A stretch of DNA of 33,579 nt from Flavobacteriaceae bacterium (GCA_029861705.1 JAOTYW010000005.1:1-33579), one strand, 5' to 3'. Shown: positions 8,514-13,211, numbered from the stretch's first letter. Numbers and translations: made by a program. The notes: generated from the letters alone by a model not told the origin.

Positions 8514-8684
8514 TTAGTCAAAAACAAATCCGGTTGCGATTCGATATGAAAAAGCGTACATAACTACTAGTAACATAGCAAAGCAAAACCAGAAAAAGAA
8601 TTTAAAATATTTGGTCAATAGTAAATGCCCAAGGTTTTTAAAAGCTTCAAGATAGATTTCTTTAATGAGTAATAATTTCTGCAT
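8514..8684 (-). CDS. 56-aa small single-TM membrane protein (paralog A; possibly DUF6747-type)
   Basis: Not in ORF track (below length cutoff). Translation MQKLLLIKEIYLEAFKNLGHLLLTKYFKFFFWFCFAMLLVVMYAFSYRIATGFVFD*; 34/56 identical to paralog B by ungapped count. Confidence 0.88.
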   Translation of the reverse strand: MQKLLLIKEIYLEAFKNLGHLLLTKYFKFFFWFCFAMLLVVMYAFSYRIATGFVFD

Positions 8685-8752: not shown

Positions 8753-8782
8753 GTTGAAATGTGATAAATAATAGTTATAAGT
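8753..8782. promoter_or_regulatory. degenerate 21-bp-period GTT direct repeat upstream of small ORF A
   Basis: GTTGAAATG-N12-GTTATAAGT; second GTT exactly 21 bp after the first. Confidence 0.35.
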
Positions 8783-8855
8783 AAAGAGGGAATCTATACA
8801 CCTTATAAATGTGTATTTTAACCTGATGAAGGGATAATCGAAACGGTTATAAACG

Positions 8856-8885
8856 AGAAAAGCGCCCGATAAAAGGCGCTTTTCT
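8856..8885 (-). terminator. hairpin terminator-like structure downstream of small ORF B
   Basis: AGAAAAGCGCC-CGATAAAA-GGCGCTTTTCT, 11-bp perfect stem. Confidence 0.75.
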
Positions 8886-8904
8886 GTCTTGAGGTTGTTT
8901 GGTT

Positions 8905-9075
8905 TTAATCGAATGCAAATCCGGTTGCTACTCTAAATAAGAATGCATACAATACAATGATGAAACTTATAAAGCAGAACCAGGTAAATACTCTAAAGTA
9001 ATTTTTTACAATAGTATGCCCCAGGTTCCTAAAGGCTTCCTGGTAAATTTCTTTGATAAGTAATAAGTAGTTCAT
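8905..9075 (-). CDS. 56-aa small single-TM membrane protein (paralog B; possibly DUF6747-type)
   Basis: Not in ORF track. Translation MNYLLLIKEIYQEAFRNLGHTIVKNYFRVFTWFCFISFIIVLYAFLFRVATGFAFD*; same length as paralog A with shared LLLIKEIY, NLGH, WFCF and ATGF.FD. Confidence 0.9.
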   Translation of the reverse strand: MNYLLLIKEIYQEAFRNLGHTIVKNYFRVFTWFCFISFIIVLYAFLFRVATGFAFD

Positions 9076-9157
9076 GGTCTATGTTCGTTTAATTAATGCT
9101 TTGGGTATTTATATAACTCTTTCCTGAAAGGGTTGCGTATATGCTTTATATGGGTTT

Positions 9158-9187
9158 GTTGTGAAATTTGTTTGCGATGTTGTGAAA
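9158..9187. promoter_or_regulatory. 21-bp-period direct repeat upstream of small ORF B
   Basis: GTTGTGAAA-N12-GTTGTGAAA; perfect 9-bp repeat, starts 21 bp apart. Confidence 0.6.
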
Positions 9188-9224
9188 ATCCTAAATGCTT
9201 CTTTTTCTGGGCATTATGCCCAAA

Positions 9225-12065
9225 TTACATATCAACTATTATGAATTCAGATCTTCGGTTCATTTGGTGCTTGGCACTGGAGCAACGTACACTTCCATCG
9301 CATTCATTGAGCAACCTTTCTTCACCATAGCCGATAGCGCTTTGAATGCGTTTTGGATCAATACCCTTCGATATTAGGTACTTCCGTGTAGATTTTGCTC
9401 TTCGGTCAGATAGATAACGGTTATAAGCCCGTTTACCTCTGGAATCTGTATGCGATTCGATTGCAATGACCAGCGTTGGATATTCATTCATTACGGTAAC
9501 AAGCTTATCCAATTCCTCAGCCGCATCACTTCGGATATATGATTTATCGAAATCAAAGAAGATCATTTCCAATTTGAGCTTGCGAATACCGTCTTCAACG
9601 CTGATCATATCTTCAAGTCGTCGCATAACCAAATCAGTTTCTACTAGCATGTTGTCTTTTGTAGACACCTCTACTTGCTCATCAAAGTAATCTCCTTTTG
9701 TCACTCGTACGGTGTATTTAGTATTGCTGTCGAGGTCTTCAAACAGGAAGCTACCGTCATCACCAGTCACCATTTCCTTGATCTTACGTCCATTTTCATC
9801 TAATAGCTCTACTAGTGCCTCAGGGAGGATCTCTCCAGTGACTACTTCGGTAACGATACCTGCAATCGCATTTTCATTAGGCTCTTCCGGCAAAATCTTT
9901 TTAAAAGAATAGATGTCATCACTTCCTTTACCTCCTTTTCGGTTGGAAGCAAAATAACCGTGTTGTGTTTCTTCATTAACGATATAAGAGAAATCGTCTT
10001 TATTGCTATTAATTGGCTTGCCGAGGTTACGCACTTCCAAAAATCCTTCGTCATCATTGAATGCTACTTCATATACATCCAAACCTCCAAGACCTACATG
10101 TCCATCGGAAGAGAAATAAAGTTTCTTATCGTTGATAAACGGGAACATCTCTCTTCGTTCAGTATTGATCTCAGGCCCTAGATTTCGGGGCTCAGAAAAA
10201 GAATTATCTCCCTGGATATCTACGACAAAAATGTCTGATTCTCCTAAAGAACCAGGCCTGTCCGACACAAAATACATTTGCTTACCATCAGGCGTTAATA
10301 CGGGATGCCCGGTAGACCAGTCATCACTGTTGAATGGCACTTCCACGGCATCAGTCCATTCGCCATCTACTTTTTTAGACATATAGATTTTAAGGTGATT
10401 AACACCGGACTTATCACGCTTTAATTTCTTCCCGTAGTTGTTACGGGTGAAATACATCGTTTCATTATCAGGCGTAAAGGCAACGGAAGCCTCATGGTAT
10501 TTTGTGTTGACCTTTTTAGACAGCTTAACTGCTTGCTTTACATCTTCTGATTCTTCATTGATTTTGGCCGCATACAGGTCTAAAAAAGGTTCATTATTCC
10601 ATTTATACCTCCTGGTAACAAAAAAGGAGGAATCCGCAGCAGACGCAAAGACAAGTTCATTGTCATTGTAATACATCGGTCCGAAATCGGAATATTTGGA
10701 ATTAATTGCGAGGTTCTTAACCGTAAACTGGTCTTCGGCGCTTAGAATATTGTCCAGGATCACCTCTCTGGGCGTTGCGTTGTCATCATTTGCTAATACG
10801 GCTTCATCTTCTTTCTTCAACTTTTTATTGTACAGCCTCATCAACCGCTTTGCGCGAGCATACTTGCCCGTTCCTTTTAGGGAATGTGCATATTTAAAGA
10901 TGTTTTCTGCAGACATTTCGCCCTTGTGCTTGCTGTAGAGCTGATCGTACCAGTAATACGCCCGCTCCATATTTGTGTTGAAATAGTGCGCATCTCCCGC
11001 TTTCTCTATGATCTCGAATGTATGGTTGTTCTTATTCCTGTTGAGGACTTGCTCGTACAGTTCAGCTGCTTCTGCATACCACATCTTGTTGAAATACAAA
11101 TCAGCTTTCTCCAAAAGCTTAGTTTTAGTTGGATCTTTCTGTGTGTTAAAAGTGGGCTTAAGCAGAATAGTACGTTGTGATGCTTTGTTTTGGTTGGCTC
11201 TTTGGGCCTTTGGCTTAGCAATTTTGGCAGTCTTGGGCACTTCTAGTACCCAGACTTTATTTTTTCTGTCTTTTTGAGTGTAGTTTTTGAGGAATGCGAG
11301 GGTTGTGTTTGAAGATTCAAATTGATCGAGATATACATATGAATTACCAGATTCAGGATGTACTAGGGTACTTGCTGCATATCCCTGATCTCGCAGCTTG
11401 AATTTTAAACGATCTGCATTCTTTCTTTCTCCGAAAACTCCGGCAATGATATAATATCCCGAGGTATACGATACAAGTGCTGCATCGCTTCTTGATGCGA
11501 TTCCGAGCGACTTTATACTTTTCTTGAATTCAATTGAAGAAAGAGCTTTTGCAGATGGATTGATCGTATTTTTAATAGGTGCAACCGGATTAACCATCGT
11601 TTTTCCATTATAGACATGAAGGATCCAAACTTTTTCTTCGAACTTGCCATTTAATTGGGAAGATGCTGAGGAAATAGCCTCGACCCCGGATACATGATAG
11701 CCGAGAGAAACATAATTTAAGTTCTTTTCTGGATGAAATAATACCTGAGCTTTCAGATTCTTAGCTTTCATTTGATCTGAAAGTCTGGAAGCATTTTCTG
11801 CATTGCCAAAAACACCAGAGATAATGTAATAACCATTAAAGGCGTCACTAAATCCATGCTGACTCCGCGTAGCAAATCCTTTTTCCTTTGCCAGGAGGAC
11901 AAAGGCCTTATGTGAAGCTGAAGAGGGCAAACTGTTTTCCTCCAAATTGACAGACGTCAAATTTGAAACAGATGCCTCAGCATAGCTTGCGTGCAATGCA
12001 AAGACCAGGAAGATTATTCCTGCTATTACATTCGCCTGCTGTATTAAGCTACGGGAGAAATTCAT
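9225..12065 (-). CDS. OmpA-family outer-membrane protein with N-terminal SPOR-like repeats, TPR-like region, PD40 beta-propeller, CarboxypepD_reg-like domain and OmpA C-terminus
   Basis: Two GYYII.GVFG... SPOR-like segments; PD40-like TPDGKQMYFVSDRPGSLGESDIFVVDI; carboxypeptidase-regulatory-like ILPEALVELLDENGRKIKEMVTGDDGSFLFEDL; OmpA FFDFDKSYIRSDAAEELDKLV...IESHTDSRGKRAYNRYLSDRRAKSTRKYLISKGID. Confidence 0.93.
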   Translation of the reverse strand: MNFSRSLIQQANVIAGIIFLVFALHASYAEASVSNLTSVNLEENSLPSSASHKAFVLLAKEKGFATRSQHGFSDAFNGYYIISGVFGNAENASRLSDQMKAKNLKAQVLFHPEKNLNYVSLGYHVSGVEAISSASSQLNGKFEEKVWILHVYNGKTMVNPVAPIKNTINPSAKALSSIEFKKSIKSLGIASRSDAALVSYTSGYYIIAGVFGERKNADRLKFKLRDQGYAASTLVHPESGNSYVYLDQFESSNTTLAFLKNYTQKDRKNKVWVLEVPKTAKIAKPKAQRANQNKASQRTILLKPTFNTQKDPTKTKLLEKADLYFNKMWYAEAAELYEQVLNRNKNNHTFEIIEKAGDAHYFNTNMERAYYWYDQLYSKHKGEMSAENIFKYAHSLKGTGKYARAKRLMRLYNKKLKKEDEAVLANDDNATPREVILDNILSAEDQFTVKNLAINSKYSDFGPMYYNDNELVFASAADSSFFVTRRYKWNNEPFLDLYAAKINEESEDVKQAVKLSKKVNTKYHEASVAFTPDNETMYFTRNNYGKKLKRDKSGVNHLKIYMSKKVDGEWTDAVEVPFNSDDWSTGHPVLTPDGKQMYFVSDRPGSLGESDIFVVDIQGDNSFSEPRNLGPEINTERREMFPFINDKKLYFSSDGHVGLGGLDVYEVAFNDDEGFLEVRNLGKPINSNKDDFSYIVNEETQHGYFASNRKGGKGSDDIYSFKKILPEEPNENAIAGIVTEVVTGEILPEALVELLDENGRKIKEMVTGDDGSFLFEDLDSNTKYTVRVTKGDYFDEQVEVSTKDNMLVETDLVMRRLEDMISVEDGIRKLKLEMIFFDFDKSYIRSDAAEELDKLVTVMNEYPTLVIAIESHTDSRGKRAYNRYLSDRRAKSTRKYLISKGIDPKRIQSAIGYGEERLLNECDGSVRCSSAKHQMNRRSEFIIVDM

Positions 12066-12159
12066 CGATTATGGTTTATTCTGGTTGATGCTCTGGCATT
12101 CAACTATTCATGCATTTAACGACGAAGTTATATCTTCCTTTTAGCTGCAAATAGTTTTT

Positions 12160-12189
12160 GTTGTGAAAGAGGTGTTTTATGTCGTGAAC
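12160..12189. promoter_or_regulatory. 21-bp-period direct repeat upstream of the SPOR-OmpA gene
   Basis: GTTGTGAAA-N12-GTCGTGAAC; same spacing and near-identical half-sites to the element at 9158. Confidence 0.55.
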
Positions 12190-12276
12190 AGCGAATTCTT
12201 GTAGTTCATCGATTGTAGGCTATAAACAGTGGCCTTAAATTGTGAGAAAAAACTGATGTTTTTAGACAAATTCTGG

Positions 12277-12800
12277 CTATTCAGTGATGTAGATCCATTC
12301 AGACCTCTCAGATCCTTCCGTTTCTGAGAAACTCAAAACGTAGAAATATGCGCCTTCAATCAATTCTTCGCGACCAAACTTGGTCAATTTTGGCTGTCTT
12401 TTACCAGTCCAGCTATTGTCATAGGCTTCCATTTCATAGACCAAAGTACCCTAACGGTCAAAGACCTGAAGAAAATTGTTGGGATAATTAGTAGTACAAG
12501 CGGCATAAAGCTCACACTTCTTTCCGTTAGCACGCTGAGAAAAATCGTTGAACACTACCAGGCAATCATTTTCAACCCATTTGATGGCCCTTTGATATTT
12601 GCAAGTTGATTTTTCGATGATTTTGTTTCATTAGTCTTAGAACTTCTTAAAAATCATTTAGCAGGATTAGCATTGATAATAAAGCTAAAACTCAATGTTT
12701 CACTTTCCTTTGCCCTGAGCATTGGTAATTTCCAAAGTCCTTCGTCTCATTATAATCACCCAGATCCTGAGTTTAGGCCTCCAGGAAACTTTCCACAGCA
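12277..12800 (-). pseudogene. decayed T9SS type-B (gliding motility-associated) C-terminal-domain protein remnant
   Basis: Minus-strand reading gives VVFNDFSQRANGKKCELYAACTTNYPNNFLQVFDR*GTLVYEMEAYDNSWTGKRQPKLTKFGREELIEGAYFYVLSFSETEGSERSEWIYITE*; in-frame TAG at 12451-12453 where the family has RWG. Upstream fragments DLGDYNETKDFGN and LPMLRAKESETLSFSFIINANPAK lie in different frames. The 12800 boundary is approximate. Confidence 0.8.
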
Positions 12801-12886: not shown

Positions 12887-13072
12887 CTACAAGTCGTTGT
12901 TCTCTTCTATTTTATCTTCTTCTTTGGATGCGTCTTTGAATTCTTTGATTCCGCTGCCCAATCCACGCATCAGTTCCGGTATTTTTTTACCGCCAAAAAG
13001 AAGTAAAATCACTACAACGACCAATACGATTTGCCAGGGGCCAAACGCAAGTATAATGTTCGATAAGCTCAT
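12887..13072 (-). CDS. tatA: Sec-independent translocase TatA/E-type protein (start trimmed from 13117 to ATG 13072)
   Basis: [52 protein letters not shown]: TatA TM helix, FGxxKxPEL hinge and amphipathic helix. Confidence 0.93.
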
Positions 13073-13211
13073 AATCTTGATTTTAGTTACACAAATGTAC
13101 AAAAAAGAAAGACCCAACTATAGAGACACCTAAATATCAAGCTGAATTCCTTTATCTATAATTTAACGTTGGAAAATACAATAAAATATAAATGGTCTTA
13201 TCTTTGTTTTT

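Follow-up and report, generated by a model that had tools for sequence, protein, structure and literature searches.

Direct-repeat elements before envelope and DUF6747 genes as predicted operators of a LytTR-type response regulator in Flavobacteriaceae

Genes and repeat elements of the locus

The window analysed here, that is, the whole stretch of 33,579 nt, belongs to a 2.7-Mb draft genome of the Flavobacteriaceae that is close to Eudoraea. It carries on the minus strand a large envelope protein gene and two small open reading frames, A and B (Table 1). The small open reading frames are two copies of DUF6747 (PF20532), each coding for 56 amino acids with a hydrophobic stretch; in both cases the profile match spans the whole 55-aa model (90 and 93 bits, cut-off 27). 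No description of the function of DUF6747 was found in the open-access literature. The envelope protein of 946 amino acids, designated SPOR-OmpA in the following, has its OmpA domain at the C-terminus. Against the NCBIfam model of the T9SS protein PorE it scores 350 bits, which lies under the curated cut-off of 600, and it is described here as PorE-like without being assigned to that family. Further upstream on the minus strand, an ordinary TatA/E-type subunit of the twin-arginine translocase is encoded at 12887-13117, and 12277-12560 is occupied by the remnant of a coding sequence interrupted by in-frame stops, which presumably resembles a T9SS/gliding-motility C-terminal sorting domain.

The first-pass annotation had placed a direct repeat with half-sites of about 9 bp and an N12 spacer upstream of each of the three genes. 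The two strong repeats are present as described, and the window contains no further match with three or fewer mismatches: 9158-9187 reads GTTGTGAAA-N12-GTTGTGAAA without mismatch, and 12160-12189 reads GTTGTGAAA-N12-GTCGTGAAC with two. In the orientation of the genes, their sequences are TTTCACAAC-N12-TTTCACAAC and GTTCACGAC-N12-TTTCACAAC, respectively. Dinucleotide shuffles contained on average 0.06 matches within three mismatches, and none of 100 shuffles had two. The refined operator is TTTCACAACA-N11-TTTCACAACA, followed 5-7 bp further on by a T-rich stretch; the period of 21 bp proposed earlier is retained, and half-sites of 10 bp separated by 11 bp give the better description. The distances to the start codons, previously given as 83 and 95 bp, had each been counted one base pair too long. 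The two elements, named B and S, were scored with a weight matrix built from copies outside the window (Table 1); the top score among 12 shuffled windows was 10.2 bits. The third repeat, GTTGAAATG-N12-GTTATAAGT (element A), does exist as letters, yet it was rejected as a chance resemblance because it scores -10.7 bits while shuffled windows reach values up to 10.2. The orthologs of the second DUF6747 copy have no element at the corresponding position. With element A unsupported, the proposed regulation of small ORF A is unsupported as well.

Table 1 Features of the window discussed in the text
Feature	Position	Strand	Remarks
DUF6747 (PF20532) copy A	8514..8684	-	Pfam E 1.3e-25; without an element of its own
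Claimed third element (A)	8753..8782	-	-10.7 bits; not found before orthologs; rejected as chance
DUF6747 (PF20532) copy B, 56-aa small membrane protein	8905..9075	-	Pfam E 1.5e-26; downstream of element B
GTTATA	9112..9117	-	Kept in DUF6747-B promoters, ~38-42 bp after the element; 10/10 orthologous promoters
Element B, LytTR-type	9157..9187	-	TTTCACAACA-N11-TTTCACAACA; 82 bp before the DUF6747-B start; 36.3 bits
SPOR / PD40 / CarboxypepD_reg / OmpA envelope protein, 946 aa	9225..12065	-	Domains from Pfam; downstream of element S
-7 box TAACTTCG	12123..12130	-	Exactly 29 bp after element S; 5/6 consensus letters of TAnnTTTG
Element S, LytTR-type	12159..12189	-	GTTCACGACA-N11-TTTCACAACA; 94 bp before the SPOR-OmpA start; 29.6 bits
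CGATGAA block	12205..12211	-	22 bp upstream of element S; second recurrent promoter motif

Candidate regulator: co-occurrence and linkage

The occurrence of the motif was determined genome-wide by pattern searches in 151 Flavobacteriaceae genomes, with the reversed pattern as control. The genome of the window contains eight sites at up to two mismatches versus none for the control. Enrichment was restricted to genomes that possess one particular LytTR response regulator, represented by G000:C268:4339-5094, whose orthologs are mostly 70-94 % identical: the 26 genomes with this regulator contained 175 motif matches versus 32 control matches, and the 125 genomes without it 96 versus 195 (Mann-Whitney p = 1.3e-16). 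The motif-enriched genomes are largely those that carry DUF6747, and in an order-level sample the regulator was seen only within Flavobacteriaceae. Since the regulator, DUF6747, the motif, and the putative small RNA described below are confined to one clade, their co-occurrence is explained partly by shared ancestry, and for this reason linkage was analysed in addition, using 80 loci of up to 8.7 kb each, for which the regulator protein was the only selection criterion. Nearly all of these loci have an element on the strand of the regulator gene, 46-450 bp after its stop codon, and hardly any elements occur elsewhere in these regions. G061 has a regulator of 58 % identity, and here a diverged element is found 70 bp before the regulator gene itself. 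Among the seven LytTR genes in the genome of the window, G000:C268:4339-5094 alone is flanked by strong elements (32.5 bits, compared with at most 12.5 bits for the others).

The regulator is composed of a receiver domain (PF00072, E 2.5e-20) and a LytTR domain (PF04397, E 7e-18); residues 159-242 match the solved chain 3d6w. Binding sites of LytTR proteins consist of repeats of 9-11 bp with spacers of 11-13 bp (PMC4847170). The half-sites of 10 bp and the spacer of 11 bp found here agree with such sites, and this protein is the candidate binder; the earlier suggestion of a LytTR-type regulator as the likely binder is well supported. The adjoining sensor kinase contains TPR, HisKA_2, and HATPase_c domains. 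As domain analysis detected no 5TM-5TMR_LYT domain in this kinase, the pair is not a LytS/LytTR system in the strict sense.

Promoter architecture and conservation before orthologous genes

A -7 box of the form TAnnTTT(G/A) starts exactly 29 bp after the element in 73 of the 78 elements from regulator loci and in 108 of the 168 elements from regulator-bearing genomes, where this is the sole enriched offset; among 24 elements from genomes without the regulator no offset was enriched. In Flavobacterium psychrophilum, the flavobacterial -7 box was mapped at -12 to -5 (PMC9723704). If this position is adopted, the operator spans about -71 to -42; sites of AgrA are centred near -60 (PMC4227749). 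Because of the box located exactly 29 bp downstream in most copies, most elements look like activator sites.

Orthologs of the SPOR-OmpA gene are preceded by an element of at least 20 bits in 15 of 21 cases, nearly all of these having the box at 29 bp. The DUF6747 genes show a bimodal distribution of scores: about 11 of 80 matches have an element (8.7-36 bits), and the others score below zero. Ten of the 11 element-bearing genes are the first copy after SPOR-OmpA, with the element 71-86 bp before the ATG, and the DUF6747-B element is kept in ten genomes of different genera or species (nine besides that of the window). The first-pass annotation had named placement at random relative to gene starts, or absence of conservation upstream of orthologs, as observations that would refute the regulon; both were examined, and the idea withstood the test.

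The promoters of DUF6747 mostly do not have the box at 29 bp. A -7 box one turn closer was considered for them; instead, these promoters turned out to share two other sequences downstream of the element, ATAC at about 17 bp and GTTATA at about 40 bp (window 9112-9140, minus strand). Given the absence of the box at 29 bp from this class, element B could make use of another sigma factor or act in repression; a different sigma factor may be employed at the DUF6747 promoters.

A second motif, CGAYRAA, recurs upstream of the elements, near positions -23/-24, -33/-34, and -53/-54 relative to them, i.e. at multiples of about one helical turn. It was counted 50 times in the 168 elements versus about 4 expected and 60 times in the 78 elements versus about 2, and it was absent from 23 elements of genomes without the regulator. 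This suggests that a further factor could be involved at these promoters. The motif often reads CGATGAAAT and, as reverse complement, is similar to the YpdB half-site GGCATTTCAT.

Predicted small RNAs and the CAP-domain lipoprotein

Between the regulator and the kinase genes, two tandem non-coding units are located, each consisting of an element, a -7 box, a conserved core, and a terminator. In the first family of predicted small RNAs, designated sRNA1, the core is TTTTCATTTTCATATAGTGTTCTCG; an alignment of 44 sequences shows no variation at about 20 of its letters. The terminator hairpin that follows the core covaries, with 49 double-change cells versus 15 in shuffles, and sliding the hairpin by one column lowers the pairing from 93.5 % to at most 68 %. 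In Rfam, no match up to E = 1 was obtained for five sRNA1/sRNA2 loci. Strong copies of sRNA1 (covariance model, E < 1e-8) occur only in regulator-bearing genomes, usually with 2-5 copies per genome; within the window, there is no copy of sRNA1 and matches to it are at chance level only (E 0.11 and 0.15). For 32 copies picked through the RNA core or the model alone, and not by the motif, an element above 12 bits was present upstream in 28 and the box at exactly 29 bp in 31, while none of 123 background windows reached 12 bits. The motif having played no part in their selection, these loci provide independent confirmation. A second small-RNA family with the core CCCAAATC forms arrays behind further elements, 51 of 155 boxed units holding this octamer. 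Such sRNA-like arrays were seen at L123, L289, L313, L265, L300, and others, with a spacing of about 200-470 bp.

A search of six genomes for the complement of the sRNA1 core yielded near matches at the start region of an orthologous gene for a CAP-domain lipoprotein (PF00188) in four of them. Zero-mismatch complements were rejected as targets, being further copies of sRNA1 itself. A protein search of 30 genomes for orthologs of the lipoprotein followed, and unbroken duplexes, with G-U pairs allowed, were predicted. A duplex of 14-23 bp between the core and the mRNA across the AUG was obtained in 16 of 21 regulator-bearing genomes, which are not 16 independent events, since the orthologs are related; the longest duplex comprises up to 23 Watson-Crick pairs. 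Six CAP homologs from five genomes without the regulator pair over 6-9 bp only, second CAP paralogs in two regulator-bearing genomes over 6 bp, and shuffled controls over about 7 bp on average and never above 15. In the five other regulator-bearing genomes (G130, G057, G103, G136, and G087), no long pairing with the CAP mRNA was found. By such pairing, sRNA1 would most likely repress translation of the CAP lipoprotein.

Further predicted members of the regulon

The genes after 214 scored elements were grouped into families. The recurrent families are an ECF sigma factor and a 124-aa protein (10 elements each), peptides of 33-35 aa and collagen-like surface proteins (9 each), an LRR protein (7), and furthermore tandem peptides of 32/33 aa, a 42-aa membrane peptide, PAS proteins, and the kinase. 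SPOR-OmpA, DUF6747, the ECF sigma factor, the LRR protein, tiny proteins, and the small RNA with its 2-5 copies are among the predicted targets shared by many genera (Eudoraea, Muriicola, Maribacter, Muricauda/Allomuricauda, Robiginitalea, Croceitalea, and Cellulophaga). Of the single regulon that the first-pass annotation had proposed for the three genes of the window, SPOR-OmpA and DUF6747-B remain and small ORF A drops out; the regulon as such is supported, and its scope had been drawn too narrowly, as small RNAs, the kinase gene, the ECF sigma factor, and several surface proteins belong to it as well.

Two arrangements in the genome of the window deserve mention. At G000:C218:7917-7967 (L031), three tandem half-sites with a period of 21 bp precede a 42-aa membrane peptide, and a similar half-site array occurs in L258 (G058). 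At G000:C37:587-616 (L006, L033), one element is followed by tandem peptides of 32 and 33 aa (MLYDTYGEEYL.., MAEQNQDNAAY..), which are kept in two other genomes.

Proposed mechanism and alternatives

We consider it highly probable that elements B and S are operators of the G000:C268:4339-5094-type LytTR regulator, which would drive a regulon that includes sRNA1, the latter pairing with the CAP mRNA. The active regulator would bind the direct repeat with its 21-bp period on one face of the DNA and, from about -71 to -42, would recruit RNA polymerase containing the primary sigma factor. The predicted regulon comprises SPOR-OmpA, the first DUF6747 gene, the ECF sigma factor, the LRR protein, several proteins of 32-42 aa, the kinase's own region, and sRNA1. 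The small RNA would pair with the start region of the mRNA for the CAP-domain lipoprotein, most likely blocking its translation. Results obtained directly by computation are the motif with its placement and its distance to the -7 box, its linkage to and co-occurrence with the regulator, the RNA family, and the target complementarity. From these we infer binding and activation by the regulator, synthesis of the RNA, repression through pairing, and cell-envelope remodelling as the common theme.

It is unlikely that another transcription factor of the same clade binds the elements and that their proximity to the regulator gene merely reflects the small RNAs sitting there. Such a factor would be compatible with the confinement of all parts to one clade, with the six further LytTR genes in the genome, and with the second recurrent motif in the promoters, but direct repeats with a 21-bp period are the arrangement typical of LytTR regulators, the linkage holds for this regulator in almost all of the 80 loci, strong elements are missing from the other LytTR loci of the genome, and the regulator gene of G061 has the element in front of it. 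Binding by the LytTR regulator with the elements acting mainly as repressor sites appears quite improbable, as most elements lie outside the core promoter and end at about -42, where AgrA and other activators are situated; this alternative draws on element B, which has no box at 29 bp, and on the fact that the direction of regulation is not readable from sequence. Element A illustrates that loose versions of the pattern do arise by chance. Nevertheless, the assumption that chance or a mobile repeat family produced the elements and that they have no regulatory role is hardly conceivable and already refuted at the sequence level by the enrichment over reversed-pattern controls, the exact 29-bp spacing to the promoter box, and the placement before the same orthologous genes across genera with unrelated spacer letters.

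Beyond operators of the LytTR regulator at the two elements, we regard it as fairly likely that a clade-wide LytTR two-component regulon of marine flavobacteria exists in which the new multicopy sRNA family serves as the repressing arm and envelope and small membrane proteins are activated directly, the CAP start codon being sealed by up to 23 bp in a phylum without Shine-Dalgarno sites. The proposal offers a regulator, an operator with exact promoter geometry, targets across genera, a new RNA family, and a target at a start codon, each step being testable in cultivable species, and it would assign a defined regulator to DUF6747, an orphan family of small proteins.

Comparison with known systems

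The open-access literature yielded no account of a LytTR-controlled regulon in Flavobacteriaceae that includes small RNAs. Like Rfp18 and other small RNAs of F. psychrophilum, sRNA1 is a flavobacterial small RNA with a predicted mRNA target; unlike these, it comes from other genera and is linked to a LytTR regulator, a link absent from that paper (PMC9723704). YpdB and BtsR of Escherichia coli (PMC4847170, PMC5552118) likewise combine a receiver with a LytTR domain and recognise direct repeats of about 10 bp with spacers of 11-13 bp. Their kinases are of the LytS type with a 5TM domain and their known targets are transporter genes, whereas the kinase described here contains TPR and HisKA_2/HATPase domains and the predicted regulon is broad and includes small RNAs.

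AgrA of Staphylococcus aureus is a further LytTR activator, and its regulon includes the regulatory RNA RNAIII. RNAIII is a single long RNA of a quorum-sensing locus, whereas several short RNAs at separate loci are found here. The direct repeats of AgrA are centred near -60 (PMC4227749), similar to the position predicted for the elements of this study.

In CiaRH of Streptococcus, a two-component regulator acts through a direct repeat on several csRNA copies and on protein genes (PMC3091779). The system described here is not a member of CiaRH, because the repeat (TTTAAG-N5-TTTAAG for CiaR, TTTCACAACA-N11-TTTCACAACA here), the domain of the linked regulator (LytTR), the unrelated sequences of the RNA and its target, and the phylum differ. 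What both have in common, in our case as predicted from sequence, is a direct repeat at a fixed distance to a promoter box that precedes several short terminator-ended RNAs as well as protein genes.
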